Shown here: positions 6,890-50,036 of the stretch, piece by piece
How the letters are laid out: every line of letters begins with the position of its first letter
Position numbering within the stretch: position 1 is the stretch's first letter
NCBI RefSeq assembly: GCF_014356525.2
Contig: NC_052514.1
Span: 3,772,190-3,836,189 of the forward strand
Source of the DNA: Nilaparvata lugens
Lineage: Eukaryota > Arthropoda > Insecta > Hemiptera > Delphacidae
Length of the DNA stretch: 64,000 nt
Reading direction: 5' to 3'
The notes under the pieces: model-generated
The model's input: the letters and a program-made list of their open reading frames with translations, nothing else
Database searches by the model: none
Told to the model about the DNA's origin: nothing
Program-made: the position numbers and the translations under genes

Positions 6890-8094
6890 GTTCTGGAAAA
6901 AGGTGCTCATAAGTCAGGGCGTGATTCCTCTCATCAAAAGAAGGAAAAAGTACTAATTAACATATAGGTCCGAAAATGCTTAGTCACCAAGTTATACAGG
7001 TTGGAAGATTTCGTCTGAATTTCTGTGCCCCTTGTAATATTACATTTTTCTTCTCACATTGGAATCGAATCTTCAATTCGAGATCTATGGAACTTTATAG
7101 TAAATGTCAGAGTCATCAATAGACGGACAAATTTTTTGACGGAGAATTTATTATCGTAAATGTTTGTTGCATTGTTCCATGGTGTCACCGAGGCAGGGTT
7201 AACAAATTACTAAATAAATCGTTTATTTAAATAGAATATATGTATAAAAATTTAAAATAACATTTTCAAAATAAAGTTTTATTGAGAACAGATGTAGAAT
7301 GTGAATTCTAAACTTGTAAATTATGATTTTGTGGTGACGTGTCTGTAATGTTGGAGGCGTTGTCTTCGTGACTTGCAACTTATGTCTTTTTCCTGTTCAG
7401 CCCTTCTTCTGAAAAATGGCTGGCTACAAGTATTGTCGTGGAGTTTTGCTCTAAATCATTTTCGTTTATTAATGTTTTAAATTGAGTTTTATATAAATTT
7501 TTGTGCATAATTAGCTATTAGTGTAGTAAAGCCAATAGCCACTGTGTTTCAACTGTAAACTAGATAAGTATTTTAGTTCGTAATAACTCTGAAATAATTA
7601 GGCTTAATATATATTCTCCTTGTGTATTTGTGTAATTTCATCTGAAGATTATAAGTTAATTTGCTCTGAAAACTGGATTTCTCATTCATAGGCAATAGAT
7701 CCGTTCACAGTTTATCAAGAATCTATTTTATTGGAGCCGACAACTATCCATAGGTTGATAGGTGTTAAATGCTATTCCAACCGTTTAAGGAAAAATTGGT
7801 AGCACGGCACCCTGCTGCAATGAAGCCCTCCGGGTATTTGTTGGCTGTTAATTAAGATGTAAAATTAAGCGTACTTTATGTGAAATGAACTGAAAAATTG
7901 AATAAAACCGTTTCCACACGTGTAGCTACAGTAATTTTTACTTTCCTTGCCCTATTACCATAGGTAAGGAAAGTATTGCTTTCCGAAAAAAATTAAGGTA
8001 CCCCAATTTCTAAATTGCTTTACGTTTCAAGGTCCCCTGAGTCCGAAAAAGTGGTTTTCGGGTATTGGTCTGTATGTATATGTGTGTGTGTGTG

Positions 8095-8152
<58 letters not shown>

Positions 8153-9556
8153 GAGTGTATGTGCATCTGTGTACACGATATCTCATCTCCCGGTTAACGG
8201 AATGACTTGAAATTTGGAACGTAAGGTCCTCACACTATAAGGATCCGACACGAACAATTTCGATCAGATGCAATCCAATATGGCGGCTAAAATAGCGAAA
8301 ATGTTGTCAAAAACAGGGTTTATCGCGATTTTCTCAAAAGCGATTTGATCAAATTCATACCTGAAATAGTCATTCATAAGCTCTATCAACTGCAACAAGT
8401 CCTATATCTGTAAAAATTTCAGGAGCTTTGCCCCATCTATGCAAAGTTCGATTTTAGATTCCGAATTATCTGGCTTCAGATAAAATTTAAACAAAAAAAA
8501 AAAAATGAATAGAAAAGATTAAGCATGAAAATCTCTACAATTAATGTCCAGTAACATTTTCACCTAAAATTGAAAATAAGCACGAAATTTGAGAAAATGT
8601 TATTATTTCAATTGCAAACTGTTGGCAACTGTTGATTCTATTAAATTATTCACTATGAAGAGATAGCAGACCTCGTATGTCTCCAGCGTTATTGTCCTGT
8701 ATCACCAGCTGGCTCAGATCTTTGTTTATAAGTAGACTTGAGATGCGCGTGCATACTAGCGTCAGGTAATCAATTTTCATAACGGCAAGGAAAGTTGTGT
8801 GAGTGCGCCACACCAGATTTTTAATATATGTGATGAAATACGCGAAACTTGGTCCCGAAAAACAAGTTCCTTCAAGGTTTGTAGCAGATTTATTACTATA
8901 ATAAATGTACAATAAACACAAAATATTTTTCTACAGAACTTGAACAAAATTTAATTTTGAAGAGAAAAATGTAGAATAAGTTGAATAGACAAATTCAACC
9001 TTAAAAAATAAACCTTAATTACATACAAAACGCATGAAAAATAGAGAGCTTAACGGATTTTGTCTATTTTTCATGCGTTTTGTATGTAAGTAGGGATTAT
9101 TTTTTAAGGCTGCATTTGTCTATTATAGACTTATTCTACATCTTTCTCTTCGAAATAAAATTTTCTACAAGTTCTGTAAAAATATTTTGTGTTCATTGTA
9201 CATTTAACATAGTAAATCTGCTTCAAACCTGGAACTTGTTTTTCGGGACCAAGTTTCGCGTATTTCATCACATATCTTGAAAATTACTGTAGCTACAGGT
9301 CTGGAAACGGTTTTATTTAATTTTTCAGTTCATTTCACATAAAGTACGCTTAATTGTACATCTTAAATTAACAGCCAACAAATATCGTAGGGCTTCGTTT
9401 CGGCAGGGGAACTGAAATTCAGACGAAATCCATCACTTTGTATAACTTGGGGAACCAAGCATTTTCGGACCTATGTTAATTAGAACTTTTTTCCTTCTTT
9501 CCTTCTTTTGATGAGAGGAATCACGCCCTGACTTATGGGCACTTTTTTCAGAAAAC
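6890..9556. mobile_element. Large foldback element with nested insertion
   Basis: The outer arms (about 6890-7037 and 9410-9556) are inverted copies, including AAGTCAGGGCGTGATTCCTC. A second pair of arms (about 7795-7937 and 9270-9405) and an inner near-perfect palindrome (about 8830-9275) continue the inversion. An H element (7938-8826) interrupts the left arm, and about 755 extra bases (7038-7794) have no counterpart on the right. No transposase is recognisable, so this is a non-autonomous foldback. Confidence 0.8.
7938..8826 (+). mobile_element. H-family element, complete copy with (TG)n
   Basis: It starts TACTTTCCTTGCCCTATTAC and ends GTGTGAGTGCGCCACACCAG. Its conserved features are GGAAAGTATTGCTTTCCG near the left end, an internal (TG)n tract (8082-8150), ACACGATATCTCATCTCCC, and ATGGCGGCTAAAAT. 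The same order is seen in copies at 23394-24210, 25235-28770 (split), 28881-29230, 39615-40442 and 48563-49448. No TIRs or coding region; class unknown. Confidence 0.85.
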
Positions 9557-23393: not shown

Positions 23394-24210
23394 AAAAAAA
23401 TCTGGTGTGGTGCACTCACACAACTTTCCTTGCCGTTATGAGAATTGATCAACTGAAGCTAGTGTTCACGCACATCTCAAGTCTACTTATAAACAAAAAT
23501 CTAAGCCAGATGGTGACAGGACAATAACGCTGGAGACACACGAGGTCTGCTATCTCTTCATAGTGAATGATTTAATAGAACCAACAGTTGCAAACAGTTT
23601 GCAATTGAAATAATAACATTTTCTCGAATTTCAAGCTTATTTTCAATTTTAGGTGAAAATGTTACTGGATATTAATTGTAGAGATTTTCATGCTCAATCT
23701 TTTCCACTCGATTTTTTTCTATTAAATTGTATCTGAAGCCTGATAATTGGGAATCTTAAATCAAACTTTGCATAGATGGGGCGGAGCTCCTGAAATTTTT
23801 ACAGATATGAGACTTGTGGTAGTTGATAGAGCTTATCAATGACTATTTTAGGTATAAATTTGATCAAAATCGTTGGAGCCGTTTTCGAGAGAATCGCGAA
23901 AAACTCTGTTCTTGACAACATTTTTGCCATTTTAGCCGCCATCTTTGATTGCATTTGATCGAAATGGTTCGTGTCGGATCCTTATAGTCTAAGGACCTTG
24001 AGTTCCAAATTTCAAGTCATTCCGTTAATTTGGAGATGAGATATCGTGTACACACACACATACACTCATACACACACATACCCAAAACCCACTTTTTTGG
24101 ACTCAGGGGACCTTGAAACGTATAGAAATTTAGAAATTGGGGTACCTTAATTTTTTTCGGAAAGCAATACTTTCCTTACCTATGGTAATAGGGCAAGGAA
24201 AGTAAAAACA
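23394..24210 (-). mobile_element. H-family element
   Basis: Reverse copy from TCTGGTGTGGTGCACTCACA to AATAGGGCAAGGAAAGTAAA, with a short (CA)n tract. Otherwise as the copy at 7938. Confidence 0.85.
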
Positions 24211-25235: not shown

Positions 25236-26185
25236 TTACTTTCCTTGCCCTATTACCATAGGTAAGGAAAGTATTGCTTTCCGAAAAAAATTAAGGTACC
25301 TCAATTTCTTAATTTCTATACGTTTCAAGGTCCCCTGAGTCCAAAAAAGTGGTTTTTGGGTATTGGTCTTTATGTGTGTGTGTATGAGTGTATGTGCGTC
25401 TGTGTACACGATATCTCATCTCCCAGTTAACGGAATGACTTGAAATTTGGTACGTATAGTCCTTACTTTATAAGAATCCGACACGAACAATTTCGATCAA
25501 ATGCAATCCGAGAATGTTGTCAAAAACAGGGGTTTTCACGATTTTCTCAAAAAGGGCTCCAACGATTTTGATCAAATTAATACCTAAAATAGTCATTGAT
25601 AAGCTCTAACAACTGCAATAAGTCCTATATCTGTAAAAATTTCAGGAGCTTCGCCCTATCAATGCAGATAGATTCCCAATTATTAGGCTTCAGATACAAT
25701 TGAAACAAAAAAAATCAAGTGGAGTAGATTGAGCATGAAAATTTCTACAATTAATGTTCAGTAACATTTTCAACTAAAATTGAAAATAAGCTTTAAATTC
25801 GAGAAAATGTGATTATTCAATTGCAAATTATTGTTGATTCTATTATTAGTATGACCTATTCCACCCTCTAGGTTTCCTAATAATTGCGAAGTATTGCTAC
25901 GACGCGGACTAGCTACAGTCGGATATGGGTCGGGGTCAGTAGCCGTACTGACAGGTGGAGACACCGGACCTACACTTCTCCCTCTATCCTGATTCTTTAC
26001 CCTCTGCTTCTTTCGCGAGATTTTTACTTTCAGGGGAAGAGCGTTTGCCCGTGCCGTTGCTGGCCGATTCGGCCCTCGGCCTTTGGAATACAGGGTGGGT
26101 GTTAAGGGAGATTAAGATGACCCTATACAAGGAGACGGATCTGACTATCAGATCCCTACCAATAATTCTATTTATAAAGGTAGTA

Positions 26186-27389
26186 CGCAATCTGAACCAA
26201 CTGCGAATTGACGGCGAGCAAGCTGTACCTGCAAGCCCAGGATGTGGTTTTTCTATGGGGTTTAAGGTGAGGGCTATGGAGTAACGGTATGGCGGAACTA
26301 TGGAGTTATTAGTAGTATTTAAGACATAGTTAAATAGGGCACGGTATAGGGTGTAAGCTATAGAGAATAGGGTGCAGGGTATGAGGTATACGGTATCGGG
26401 TATAGGGAACAGAGAATCAATAATAAGATTATTATTCTCTACAGCAAATAAATATCTGCTCAATAATCCGCAATCTGAGAATTGCGCTCTAGCTCTCAGC
26501 AAGCTGAACCTGCTAGCTAAATGCAGTATATCAATTTTAATTATGTGGTAATTAAAATTCAGAGGATAAGGTTTGAGGTGTGGGATTTCTGAGTCGCGAG
26601 CCTGCAGCTGCGAAAGGATTTTCAGCAATTCTGAAACTGCTAAACAGGATTTCCGCGCTAATCTGATGACTGCGCGCCGGTTATTAAGGGCCAATCTGTG
26701 ACTGCCCTTAAGGGTATGGGAATCACTCTCAATCGTCCGAAACGCTTTTAAATTAATAGTCAGTATGTCGACTATTATGAGAGGATAGAAAAGATTTTTC
26801 ACAGACACAGTCTGTAGAATAATATCGGGAAGACAACAGTCTGTCGTTGTCAGGGTAGGAAAGGATTCTTCCAGGATTTTCCACAAGGAAAATATCGAGT
26901 CAGAGACTCCTAATTCAGGAAAAGATTTCAATAGATTTTTCCAAGTAATTGCCAGTCTAAGGACTACCACAATATCGATCTCTAATTTGCAACTGAGATC
27001 ACGGGAAAATTCGTGAATTTTCCACAGGGAAAACCAGCAAATAATATTTGCTATTAAAGAAGACAGGTTTCTAAGAATTTTAGAAAGGATTCGCGGGTCT
27101 GAAAACCCGCGACTAGGACGATCTCGAATCTGGAACTGAGATCAGGAAGGATTTTAACACAGGAAGAATTAAGAGAAAGGATGCCGCAGTCTAGAAACTT
27201 CGGCGAGGAAGTCCTCAAGCTGTACCTGAGAGCTAGAAGGATTTTAGAATAGGGAAAGTGAAGAGAAAGAAAGAGAATGGACGTCGCAGTCTAGAAACTT
27301 CGACAAGGACGAACTCAAGCTGCACCTGAGTTCTCTAGGAAAAGGATTGGACTTTTCCTACTTGGAATTACAGCAAGTCAGAAACTGCT
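26186..27389. repeat. Array of about sixteen hairpins with a shared loop motif
   Basis: Examples, given as arms and loop: 26186-26205 CGCA/TGCG, loop ATCTGAACCAAC; 26498-26514 AGCA/TGCT, loop AGCTGAACC; 26594-26613 TCGC/GCGA; 26624-26641 AGCA/TGCT, loop ATTCTGAAAC; 26654-26676 CGCGC/GCGCG, loop TAATCTGATGACT; 26684-26711 TTAAGGGC/GCCCTTAA, loop CAATCTGTGACT; 26977-27000 and 27120-27143 GATCTC/GAGATC, loops TAATTTGCAACT and GAATCTGGAACT; 27183-27204 GCCG/CGGC and 27283-27304 GTCG/CGAC, same loop CAGTCTAGAAACTT; 27214-27230 CTCA/TGAG; 27312-27332 AACTCA/TGAGTT; 27372-27389 AGCA/TGCT. Arms vary but pair; loops converge on about AAKCTGNAMCT. Confidence 0.75.
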
Positions 27390-27470
27390 AAGCGAATTTA
27401 AAATACAGGGTCACTCTATAGTATGAAAACTAAGCAAGGAAAATTTACCATAGATGATAATAATCTCTCT

Positions 27471-27640
27471 ACAAGGATAAAAATTAATCGAGAAAACTTT
27501 TCTCAAAAGGAACAGGGATTTTCCCACAAGAATAAAAATTAATTGAGTAAAACTATTCTTAAAAAGGACAGGGGTTTCCCTACAAGAATAAAAATTCAAT
27601 GGAGAAAAATTACTCTTTAAACTAAAGGCCACCTTACTAC
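27471..27640 (+). repeat. ~58-base tandem repeat, three units
   Basis: Units contain ACAAGAATAAAAATTAATTG, a GAGAAAACTTTTCTC-type hairpin and an AGGGATTTTCCC-type hairpin. The third unit is truncated. Part of the hairpin-dense insertion. Confidence 0.75.
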
Positions 27641-28770
27641 AGAGAAGGAAAAATATACGGACTACCAGTCCTGACATACAATTACCTGAAATGACGTAGA
27701 TACTGATACGGAGAATAGCGAACCGATTCCCACTTCCCGTATTATAAGTTAATTAAAAACGTCGTGAAGCGACAGAGTCGAGACTTATAAATTAAGTACT
27801 CAAAAATAACCCGCTATAAGAGCCTAGCTAAATTTCCCCACTCAACTGTTTGTAACACAAACTTGAGATCCCTTACAGGTTTCAAAACCAAGAATAACTC
27901 GTTCACCCCCAGTGATACGAATTTAGGAAAAATAACCAACAAGAAAGAAAATCCCCCAGGAAGTTCTATCTTCAAATACAGTCGGCAATTCGACATACAA
28001 TATTCCATTCACTAAAATACAGAATGGAATATTAACCCTCTAGTACACCACTATTAGGAGCGCCGCTCGGGACGCAGCCGTACACGAACCCGTTCACCGA
28101 ACAACTGCTTTCTCCCAGGTCTTCTTGAAGCTGCACCGGGTCGCTGAAAATTAGGAGGCCGGGGGAAAAGAGCTTCCTGACCAATGAGAGTCTGAAAAGA
28201 CGATCACGCCACTGGTCATGTGACGGGGTTTGACTCAGCTGCTCCTGATGCTAAGGGTGCAGCAAATGATGACAATACTGCTGATTCATATAGTAGATTA
28301 GGCCGGTAAACAATATTTCTATTCCAGAAATTTCATGAAGAGCGATACCGACTCAACTCGGTAGCCGAGTGGTAAACAAGATCTGGAAATATCTGGTTAG
28401 ATGAATCCGCTGCTGATGATTTAAAGGGGTTGACGGCGATGGTGATAATGTGCATGTACACAACTGCAAATCTAACAAAATATATCTGGAAGTCGATCCT
28501 ATTCCTATTCTAAAACAGAATAAATTCGCTAAATTATGCATTAGTCGACGGCTCTCCATCCGTCACAAAAATTCACTTTGTGACACTATTAAATCATTCA
28601 CTATGAAGAGATAGCAGACCTCATGTGTGTCTCCAGCGTTATTGCCCTGTCACCAGCTGGCTCAAATCTTTGAATAGTAGACTTGAGATGCGCGGGAACA
28701 CTAGCGTCAGGTGATCAATTTTCATAACGGCAAGGAAAGTTGTGTGAGTGCGCCACACCAGATTTTTTTT

Positions 28771-29018
28771 ATTTCTGATGAAGAAAACACAATAATTCTT
28801 TAAATGATTGTGTTTATATTTCACAGCTGGCTATGTCATCTTATGAATTTCGGGCATGTGATATTGTTATTTTTCACTTACTTTTTTACTTTCCTTGCCC
28901 TATTACCATAGGTAAGGAAAGTATTGCTTTCCGAAAAAAATTAAGGTACCCCAATTTCTAAATCTCTATACGTTTCAAGGTCCCCTGAGTCCAAAAAAGT
29001 GGTTTTTGGGTATTGGTC

Positions 29019-29110
<92 letters not shown>

Positions 29111-29230
29111 TGAAATAAAATGACTTGAAATTTGGAACATATAGTCCTTACACTATAAGGATCCGACACGAACAATTTCGATCAAATGCAATCCAAGATG
29201 GCGGCTAAAATGGCGAAAATGTTGTCAAAA
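28771..29230 (+). repeat. Second flank unit plus truncated H element
   Basis: 28771-28885 repeats 25100-25235. 28881-29230 is the left third of an H element with an expanded (TG)n tract (29024-29111), ending within ATGGCGGCTAAAATGGCGAA and AATGTTGTCAAAAACTG. The truncation lies 45 bases from DNAJC28 exon 3. Confidence 0.8.
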
Positions 29231-39614: not shown

Positions 39615-40258
39615 TCAAAAATCTGGTGTGGCGCACTCACACAACTTTCCTTGCAGTTTTGAAAATTGATCACCTGACGCTAGTGTAGTCGCGCATCTCA
39701 AGTCTACTTATAAACAAAGATCTGAGCCAGCCAGCTGGTGACAAGACAATACCGCTGGAGACATACGAGGTTTGCTATCTCTTCGTAGTGAATCATTTAA
39801 TAGAATCAACAGTTACCAACAGTTTGCAATTTGATTAATCACATTTTCTGGAATTTCGAGCTTATTTTCAATTTTCAATTGTAGAGATTTTCATGCTCAA
39901 TCTTTTTTGCTCAATTTTTCTGTTTAAATTGAATCCGAAGCCTGATAATTGGGAATCTAAAATAAAACTTTGCATAGATGGGGTGGAGCTCCTGAAATTT
40001 TTACAGATATGGGACTTGTGACAGTTGATAGAATTTATCAATTTCTATTTTGGTCAAAATCGTTGGAGCCGTTTTCGAGAAAATCGCGAAAAACCCTGTT
40101 TTTGACAACATTTTTACCATTTTATCCACCATCTTGAATTGCATCAGATCGAAATTGTTCGTGTCGGATCCCTATATTGTAAGGACCTTTAGTTCCAAAT
40201 TTCAATTCATTCCGTTAATTGGGAGATGAGATATCGTGTACACAGACGCACATACACT

Positions 40259-40309
<51 letters not shown>

Positions 40310-40442
40310 CAATACACAAAAACCACTTTTTTGGACTCAGGGTACCTTGAAACGTATAGAAATTTGGAAATTGGGGTACCTTAATTTTTTTCGGAAAGCA
40401 ATACTTTCCTTACCAATGTTAATCGGACAAGGAAAGTAAAAA
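39615..40442 (-). mobile_element. H-family element
   Basis: Reverse copy from TCTGGTGTGGCGCACTCACA to GACAAGGAAAGTAAAAAG, with a (CA)n tract at 40262-40306. Absent from the duplicated segment copy 1. Confidence 0.85.
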
Positions 40443-48125: not shown

Positions 48126-48562
48126 CTCTACTCTATCAAAAACTGAAACCTGGCTGATTAAACGTTACAAGATGGCCGTCCTGTTATGTAACGACCGAAA
48201 ATCCGGAATATGTTTTTAGAAAGTGGGCCGTTCGATAGTACTGTATTCTAAATATTCTCTTTTCAAGATAAGTTTGTTCGAGAATAACTTAAACAAAGAA
48301 GAATATCAGTGACCTAAAAAGACTGTTTTAGTGTTTTAAATGCACTTTCTCTTCCATGATTAACGACCGACTGAGAACAGAGAATCGTGCATGGAAGTCG
48401 GATAATGGTTAAGTAACAATGGTAACTTGAAAAGTTATGACAAGAGTACCATTGGATACTCTAGTACCATTGGATGACTGGTACCGTTGGATTGATTCTT
48501 TTCTCTTAAGATTTTATTTTGGAGCAATACTCGTTCAAAATATAGTATGTAAATCTTTGAAA

Positions 48563-49239
48563 AAAACCTGGTGTGGCGCACTCACACAACTTTCCTTGCC
48601 GTTATGAAAATTGATCACGTGACGCTAGTGTTCCCGCGCATCTCAAGTCTACTATTCAAAGATTTGAGCCAGCTGGTGACAGGGCAGTAACTCTGGAGAC
48701 ACACGAGGTCTGCTATCTCTTCATAGTGAATCATTTAATAGAGTCAACAGTTGCCAACAGTGTCAATTGAATAATCACATTTTCTGGAATTTCTAGCTTA
48801 TTTTTAATTTTAGGTGAAAATGTTACTAAACATTAATTGTAGAGACTCTCATGATCAATCTTTTCCACTCGAAAGTTTTTGTTTAAATTGTATCTGAAGC
48901 CTGATAATTGAGAATCTAAAATCAAACTTTGCATAGATGGGGCGGAGCTCCTAAAAGTTTTACAGATATGGTAATTGTGGCAGTTGATAGAGCTTATCGA
49001 TGACTATTTTAGGTATAACTTTGATCAAAATCGTTGGAGCCGTTTTCGAGAAAATCGCGAAAAACACTATTTTTGACAACTTTTTTGCCATTTTAGCCGC
49101 CATCTTGAATTGCATTTGATCGAAATTGTTCGTGTCGGATCCTTATAGTGTAAGGACCTTACGTTCCAAATTTCAAGTCATTCCGTTAACTGGGAGATGA
49201 GATATCGTGTACACAGACGCACATACACTCATACACACA

Positions 49240-49316
<77 letters not shown>

Positions 49317-49448
49317 CAATACCCAAAAACCACTTTTTTGGACTCAGGGGACCTTGAAACGTATAGAAATTTAGAAATTGCGGTACCTTAATTTTTTTCG
49401 GAAAGCAATACTTTCCTTACCTATGGTAATAGGGCAAGGAATGTAAAA
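48563..49448 (-). mobile_element. H-family element with long (CA)n
   Basis: Complete reverse copy from CTGGTGTGGCGCACTCACAC to AATAGGGCAAGGAATGTAAA; the (CA)n tract spans about 49230-49313. Confidence 0.85.
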
Positions 49449-50036
49449 AAAGAACAATTGTCACTTCAATGACGTTTCAAATGATAACGGCAACACTGAA
49501 CAAAGTGATGTTTTTGGACTTGGGGGATCTTGAAACGTATAGAAAACTTGAAATTGGGATATCTTGAATTTTTTGGAAAGCAATAATTTTCTTTGCCTTT
49601 GGTAGTAGGTATGACAAGGATAATATTCATTATAGATGTGTGATTGATCTTATCATAAATACTTATCTCACTGGATATTGAATACCTCAGGTAGGCTATG
49701 TTGTTCCAATTTTTGAAAAGTCAATATTTTCTGTATACATTGTTAAATTTTTACTTTTTTGAGGGTGTTGCCCACATGATCTTCAGGCTTGTGCGTGGGT
49801 AATGAGACTGATGATGATGATAATGAGAGAAGATATGATAATAGTCTATATTGTCTCACTTATTTGATGGGGATTAATGATAATAATACTTAACCATATA
49901 GAAGAAAATGTGGTAATGATACTCGTAATTAAAGGTAAGTGTGGTAATGATACTCGTAATTAATGGTAATCGTAATGATTGAATAATGAATAATTGATTT
50001 TTAATTACATAAAATAATGAATAATTATTGACTCAC

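Follow-up and report, generated by a model that had tools for sequence, protein, structure and literature searches.

A tandem hairpin array in the LTR of a putative Ty3/Gypsy-type retrotransposon family of Nilaparvata lugens

A stretch of 64,000 nucleotides of the Nilaparvata lugens genome (NC_052514.1, positions 3,772,190 to 3,836,189; hereafter the window) contains a close succession of short hairpins between its positions 26186 and 27389. The locus raises two questions: what kind of element carries the array, and are the arms of the hairpins kept complementary by selection? Coordinates of the relevant features are collected in Table 1.

Table 1. Features of the LTR and of its hairpin array (window coordinates)
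Feature	Position	Strand	Remarks
Solo LTR, 2,742 bp; starts TGTCAC at 28585, ends CTAATA at 25844	25844..28585	-	common ends, target site duplications, direct LTR pairs
Target site duplication CTAT, left	25840..25843	.	empty sites in four host-repeat copies; 11 further copies also have 4-bp duplications
Target site duplication CTAT, right	28586..28589	.	same basis as left CTAT
Candidate TATA box TATAAATAG, immediately 3' of the array on the sense strand	26168..26176	-	intact in 27 of 30 copies; putative promoter role
Array of hairpins, some 18 with a loosely common loop motif and 11 others	26186..27389	- (LTR sense strand)	shuffles, loop-first test, hand list
Hairpin CGCAAT/ATTGCG	26469..26486	-	two-sided change relative to related LTRs
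X-type hairpin, arms GCCG/CGGC	27183..27204	-	
Y-type hairpin CTCA/TGAG, loop AGCTGTACC	27214..27230	-	
X-type hairpin, arms GTCG/CGAC	27283..27304	-	two-sided change relative to the hairpin at 27183
Y-type hairpin GAACTCA/TGAGTTC, loop AGCTGCACC	27311..27333	-	
Hairpin TAGGAAAAG/CTTTTCCTA	27336..27360	-	inner pair varies among 30 LTR copies
Three 55-56-bp tandem repeats adjoining the array	27438..27604	.	
Terminal hairpin GTCACAAA/TTTGTGAC, sense 5' end of the LTR	28562..28584	-	arms unchanged in L060, the one relative compared

The array itself, first described in a sequence-only reading of the window, was borne out. Between 26186 and 27389 there were 19 non-overlapping perfect stems of at least 6 bp (loop 3-16), against a mean of 3.5 in dinucleotide shuffles, whose maximum was 7 (200 shuffles) or, in a repeat run, 8. 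Stems of at least 7 bp numbered 12 (0.94 in shuffles) and those of at least 8 bp numbered 6 (0.27 in shuffles; n = 200 for both). Shuffled sequence was thus far poorer in hairpins. The two flanking parts of the same LTR had small excesses within the shuffle range: 3 stems compared with 0.94 (maximum 5) in 25846-26185, and 7 compared with 3.25 (maximum 9) in 27390-28585. The arms and loops that had been described were all found in place, including the identical loop CAGTCTAGAAACTT common to the GCCG/CGGC and GTCG/CGAC hairpins. A direct repeat of 60 nt, whose copies are 85% identical and lie 100 nt from each other, contains these two hairpins. Where the original estimate was about sixteen hairpins, a loose hand list gave approximately 18 with the loop motif, and 11 further hairpins lack the motif and have GGAAAA/TTTTCC arms, A+T-rich arms, and others. 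Likewise, the arms do remain complementary, but they are not all different, since several recur within the array (AGCA three times, GATCTC and CTCA twice each).

The loop motif was tested separately. A[AG][TC]CTG occurs 9 times in the array (plus strand, flanks ignored), compared with a shuffle mean of 1.17 and a maximum of 6 (n = 300), and a stem of at least 4 bp flanks 8 of these 9 sites compared with 9 of 50 outside the LTR. Four other loop patterns were stem-flanked at 7 of 8, 5 of 5, 2 of 4 and 5 of 8 sites in the array, against 4 of 51, 4 of 17, 5 of 25 and 10 of 57 outside; all five patterns were chosen after the earlier finding had been read. The proposed common loop form is therefore enriched in the array but only loosely shared, because a covariance model built from 4 hairpins gained few array hairpins and also matched elsewhere: of the 17 window sequences that it matched at E up to 10, 4 were its own, 3 were additional array hairpins (E 0.05, 0.36 and 0.79) and 10 lay outside the array, from E 0.39 on. 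No known RNA family was recognised in the array: the Rfam covariance models gave no match at the gathering threshold over the window, nor at E up to 1 over 25840-28600.

The array forms the middle of a 2,742-bp LTR. When set against four copies of a host repeat in the window that lack it, the array proved to lie within an insertion bearing a short target duplication. A search of the species' own 1.085-Gb genome yielded at least 54 matching rows (best 40 of 1,224 first-look candidates scored); among the matches listed, whole-length LTR copies other than that of the window are 93-97% identical. The same two LTR ends recur in 25 of the 30 listed loci; the remaining five are truncated by a contig end, lack one base, or match only in part. 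Matching 4-bp target site duplications flank the window copy, 11 further solo copies and a direct LTR pair on contig C4 (ACAT on both outer sides); the outer flanks of a pair on C9 carry no matching duplication. In the direct LTR pairs on C1771, C9 and C4 the LTRs are separated by 2,947, 2,935 and 2,931 bases, with starts 5.65-5.67 kb apart, and differ from each other by 1.1%, 0.8% and 1.4%, respectively. The common ends, the 4-bp duplications and the direct pairs identify window positions 25844-28585 as a solo LTR with its sense on the minus strand. It is a remnant left by recombination. Its sense 5' end is TG; its sense 3' end is TA and not the CA of the TG...CA rule. Because the other defining features are present despite this TA, the element was filed as an LTR retrotransposon with an unusual end.

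Two other identities were considered for the insertion and rejected. A stand-alone element with a 6-bp target duplication and a plus-strand promoter does not agree with the other copies, which show a 4-bp duplication and an LTR that includes the TA, and a plus-strand sense is contradicted by the Gag frame, PPT and PBS, which place the sense on the minus strand. A TIR transposon was rejected for want of any terminal inverted repeat of note. Queries of IMG/VR with the frame and pieces of the LTR, with the loop and with the host repeat all gave no match. The host repeat is about 0.9 kb long, with copies at 7935-8837 (+), 23394-24208 (-), 39617-40442 (-) and 48560-49450 (-); the LTR is inserted into one copy of it, and a further partial copy lies at 28763-29198. 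At one locus (L035, C7:33357500-33365000) a full LTR has inverted LTR pieces of higher divergence (76-88%) on either side, a layout that suggests nested or rearranged insertions. Elsewhere LTR matches follow each other 5.5-5.7 kb apart in rows of two or three (C1771 at 18398, 24063 and 29731; C14 at 9656142 and 9661726; C6 at 11565580 and 11571078), consistent with tandem LTR-internal units with common LTRs.

The region between paired LTRs was used to characterise the family. The PPT gtaggagtgggg adjoins the LTR in 8 of 30 loci, and a PBS-like sequence TGGCGCCCAAG (primer-site candidate, TGGCGCCC), which we take to be of the tRNA-Lys type, follows the LTR at a distance of 34 nt in the three junctions displayed. 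Self-priming in place of a tRNA primer was rejected, the best LTR matches scoring 7-9 over 12-21 nt. A Gag frame of 748 codons is present in one copy (L032), and the Gag-protease frames match Retrotrans_gag (PF03732), zf-CCHC and aspartyl protease. Scanning of four frames from three internal regions revealed no RT or integrase, and in these four frames the family is Gag-PR only; frames of 1,144 and 1,193 codons occur in further copies. The family appears to be of the Ty3/Gypsy type, encoding a predicted Gag-protease and, as far as scanned, lacking RT and integrase. A 467-aa piece of Gag had no match at E 0.001 in a large protein set (7,998 candidates scored). The protease-like motif of L032 and L031 reads DMG, where aspartyl proteases carry DT/SG, and L031 has a second protease-like match downstream, below the Pfam cut-off.

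When the same genome was searched with Gag, at least 10 places at 66% Gag identity were found besides the family itself (best 91 of 2,439 candidates). Three of these 10 places contain a 1,702-aa frame. A piece of one such frame (L061) matches RVT_1, RT_RNaseH, Integrase_H2C2 and rve, in that order, and this RT-RNase H-integrase order fits Ty3/Gypsy. The LTR side of a relative (L059) is 81-89% identical to the window LTR over three main blocks and 69% over one weaker block, and in its middle a two-hairpin unit of approximately 56 or 100 bp is repeated in tandem. Units counted by pattern numbered 29 (X) and 28 (Y) in L059, 12 and 11 in L060, and 19 and 18 in L062; by the identical patterns, 26 of the 30 loci listed for the window's family have two units of each type. 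Six of the L059 X units have lost their pairing by deletion. A related family with RT and integrase thus carries the same array, expanded, in its LTR, and on account of these longer versions the hairpins have the appearance of a signal that the element has kept. The sequence-only reading knew of no described insect element with such a layout; the element is nevertheless not of a new kind, being the LTR of a family that is most probably Ty3/Gypsy-type.

Selection on pairing was assessed from the covariation of the arms. The window and three relative LTRs together yield 19 distinct X units, in which 95.5% of the cells are paired and 7 are two-sided; before the L062 units were added, the set numbered 15. 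Only 1 of 500 shuffles, and none of the slid versions, attained the covariation score of the 19 units. Two-sided changes (C-G/U-A) affect two of the seven pairs and are accompanied by U.G intermediates and a few breaks; the number of two-sided pairs and that of pair types did not exceed those of shuffles (331 of 500 each). Where an X unit has one non-Watson-Crick pair, that pair, counted on the sense strand and leaving out the six L059 units with the deletion, is U.G in 7 cases and A.C in 2. Two sets of four hairpins each (A2 and A3), hand-picked because their hairpins pair, also covary, with scores reached by 1 and 5 of 500 shuffles, respectively; in A3 two-sided pairs and pair types were not clearly above shuffles (51 of 500 each). 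All these shuffles leave the relatedness among the units in place.

Between families, the hairpin at 26469 is CGCGAT/ATCGCG in L059 and L062 and CGCGAT/ATCGCA in L060, a two-sided change from A-T to G-C at the same pair when compared with the window copy. Most motif stems are unchanged in this comparison: 253 cells were unchanged, 7 two-sided, 15 broken and 12 gapped, and G.U cells numbered 21 on the sense strand and 14 on the antisense strand. The hairpin at 26498 is broken in L059, and the non-motif hairpins at 26533, 27659 and 27999 decay in the relatives. Among 30 LTR copies, the pair 27344/27352 in the hairpin at 27336 is G-C in 13 copies, T-A in 14 and T.C in 1, and is gapped in 2. Other copies of the element have paired arms in the large majority of cells. 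The description as variable arms around a constant loop holds for the paralogous hairpins within one array, but not between copies or families, where most motif arms do not change. Nevertheless, the two-sided arm changes among units and between families, together with the smaller number of variable sites in stems (see below), support the suggestion that a structured nucleic acid is under selection. We regard selection on pairing as moderately supported.

Over 50 aligned rows, 59 of 302 stem sites were variable, compared with 207 of 743 unpaired array positions (P = 0.005). Across 30 copies, the share of cells that depart from the commonest base was 1.26% for stems, 1.99% for loops and 1.94% for spacers in the array, and 1.69% in 25846-26185 and 2.68% in 27390-28240 outside it. 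When 29 copies were compared with the window copy per 100 bp, divergence was 0.7-2.8% in the array core (26646-27245) and 3.2-4.9% in 27246-28145. The core ranks with the least diverged stretches of the LTR; the whole array does not, because 26246-26345 and 26546-26645 diverge by 8.1% and 6.0%. These data bear on the copying mechanism put forward in the sequence-only reading; in the form considered here, quasi-palindrome template switching and unequal exchange would make and homogenise the arms without selection. Such a process would agree with the wide variation in tandem unit number (12 to 29), with the recurrence of arms within the array and with the two-sided G-C/T-A difference segregating among copies. 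It is at odds with the partly paired U.G-type intermediates, which stepwise change would yield, with the paucity of variable stem sites relative to unpaired positions across copies, and with the low divergence of the core. We consider it improbable and not needed to account for the array. Divergence from the window copy rises to 15.3% at 28346-28445, and 28246-28545 is the most variable, indel-rich part of the LTR among the copies. A tRNA A-box-like stretch was noticed by eye near 28363 and a loose B-box pattern matches at 28395, possibly by chance; the A-box pattern had no match.

The pairing could also serve at the DNA level. The array would then be a U3 row of repeated sites for a host DNA-binding protein, acting as enhancer or insulator like the Su(Hw) sites of the Drosophila gypsy element, with arms that pair because each site has dyad symmetry. 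The position of the array just upstream of a TATA-like motif would suit such sites, as would the core CAAGCTGNACCTG, which is identical in all 4 aligned Y-type rows, and the conservation of the motif loops (31 of 152 sites variable), which is close to that of the motif stems (27 of 160). Nor is the strand asymmetry of wobble pairs robust. In 30 copies there was an excess of G.U on the sense strand (28 versus 16 distinct events, P = 0.048), but when 20 partial copies were added (50 rows) the counts were 25 versus 18 (P = 0.18), and since the excess weakens with more copies, wobble does not decide which strand acts. A fixed DNA site, however, does not predict two-sided arm changes with pairing kept, and the sense RNA of 26960-27400 folds more stably (z -3.70, 0 of 100 shuffles) than the antisense (z -2.05, 3 of 100). 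On this balance DNA-level sites seem unlikely, though less so than hairpin copying. Nine 150-nt windows over 26100-27449 had mean fold z values of -1.2 and -1.3 on the two strands, and one part of the L059 array was not unusually stable (z -1.09 sense, -0.40 antisense).

The LTR sense strand also contains an unexplained stop-free frame of 385 codons without Met (25984-27141, minus). If it were a protein gene, the hairpins might be a by-product of coding. A frame of this length appeared in none of 1,000 whole-element shuffles and none of 8,000 block shuffles, and no stop interrupts it in 27 of 30 copies, L008 with its 1-base gap among them. Against coding, the window copy of the frame has no Met codon, there is no Pfam match and two sequence searches gave no homologue, and the two shifted frames show the same kind of behaviour. 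Its synonymous, nonsynonymous and stop variants number 91, 179 and 4, compared with neutral expectations of 85.9, 180.5 and 7.6. Since the variation looks neutral, a protein gene in the LTR was rejected as very improbable.

We therefore favour, with somewhat better than even confidence, the explanation that the array belongs to the LTR of a Ty3/Gypsy-type family and that selection maintains its hairpins as a multi-copy cis signal, most likely in the sense RNA. This explanation draws on the LTR identity of the array, the related family, the expansion, the covariation among units and the fewer variable stem sites. The hairpins would form in the sense RNA of the element. If TATAAATAG at 26176 (sense) is the TATA box, the array would lie in U3 and hence at the 3' end of the element RNA; the three relatives lack TATAAATAG and read ACAAATATAAT there. 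Since both the family with RT and integrase and the Gag-PR family have kept the array, a cis signal common to the two is suggested. We tentatively take its most likely use to be that of serial binding sites for a protein, for instance Gag, serving packaging or dimerisation; RNA export or stability, or a site array at the DNA level, are alternatives. The Gag-only family might use the enzymes of the other family through the common signal, a mobilisation in trans. One could go further and suppose that the multivalent array is a recognition ticket common to a full Gypsy-type element and its Gag-only relative, its length (2 to 29 unit copies) tuning packaging or mobilisation; this is speculative, and we think it rather unlikely in so specific a form. 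To our knowledge the cis signals of animal LTR retrotransposons are poorly known. Two related families with very different array lengths in one genome offer a natural dosage series for the role of such an RNA, and the same series bears on the way in which a relative may carry a Gag-only element.

LTR retrotransposons, derivatives with Gag alone and motifs repeated within LTRs are already known; no description of a covarying, expandable hairpin array filling an LTR was found in the open-licence literature searched. With Ty3/Gypsy elements (Metaviridae) the window's own family shares LTR pairs, the PPT, a PBS candidate, Gag with CCHC and protease; the piece of the relative has the RT-RNase H-integrase order. 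The window's family differs from them in the 2.74-kb LTR with its hairpin array, the sense end TA, the PBS 34 nt from the LTR and the lack of RT and integrase in the frames scanned. In the latter respect it may resemble TR-GAG and other plant non-autonomous LTR elements, which, in the portions of their descriptions available, have LTRs and Gag; unlike what those portions report for TR-GAG, it keeps protease-like domains and has a long LTR with a hairpin array. Its host is an insect, whereas TR-GAG is a plant element. RNA viruses have packaging signals that likewise consist of many hairpins with a short loop motif; as far as the accessible accounts go, these are dispersed in the genome and have a known coat protein, whereas the hairpins here are clustered in an LTR and would have a proposed protein partner. 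Conserved RNA structure or stem-loops in LTRs have been noted for Cassandra (PMC7215508) and in LTR models (PMC3601003), which in the excerpts at hand concern LTR-to-LTR pairing or R-region stem-loops and not a tandem covarying array. The LTR and linker motifs of Sirevirus (PMC2829016) are, in the available part of that account, high-copy symmetric motifs in the LTRs of otherwise diverged elements; those plant motifs have a fixed CGG-CCG core, whereas the arms of the present array vary and stay paired.
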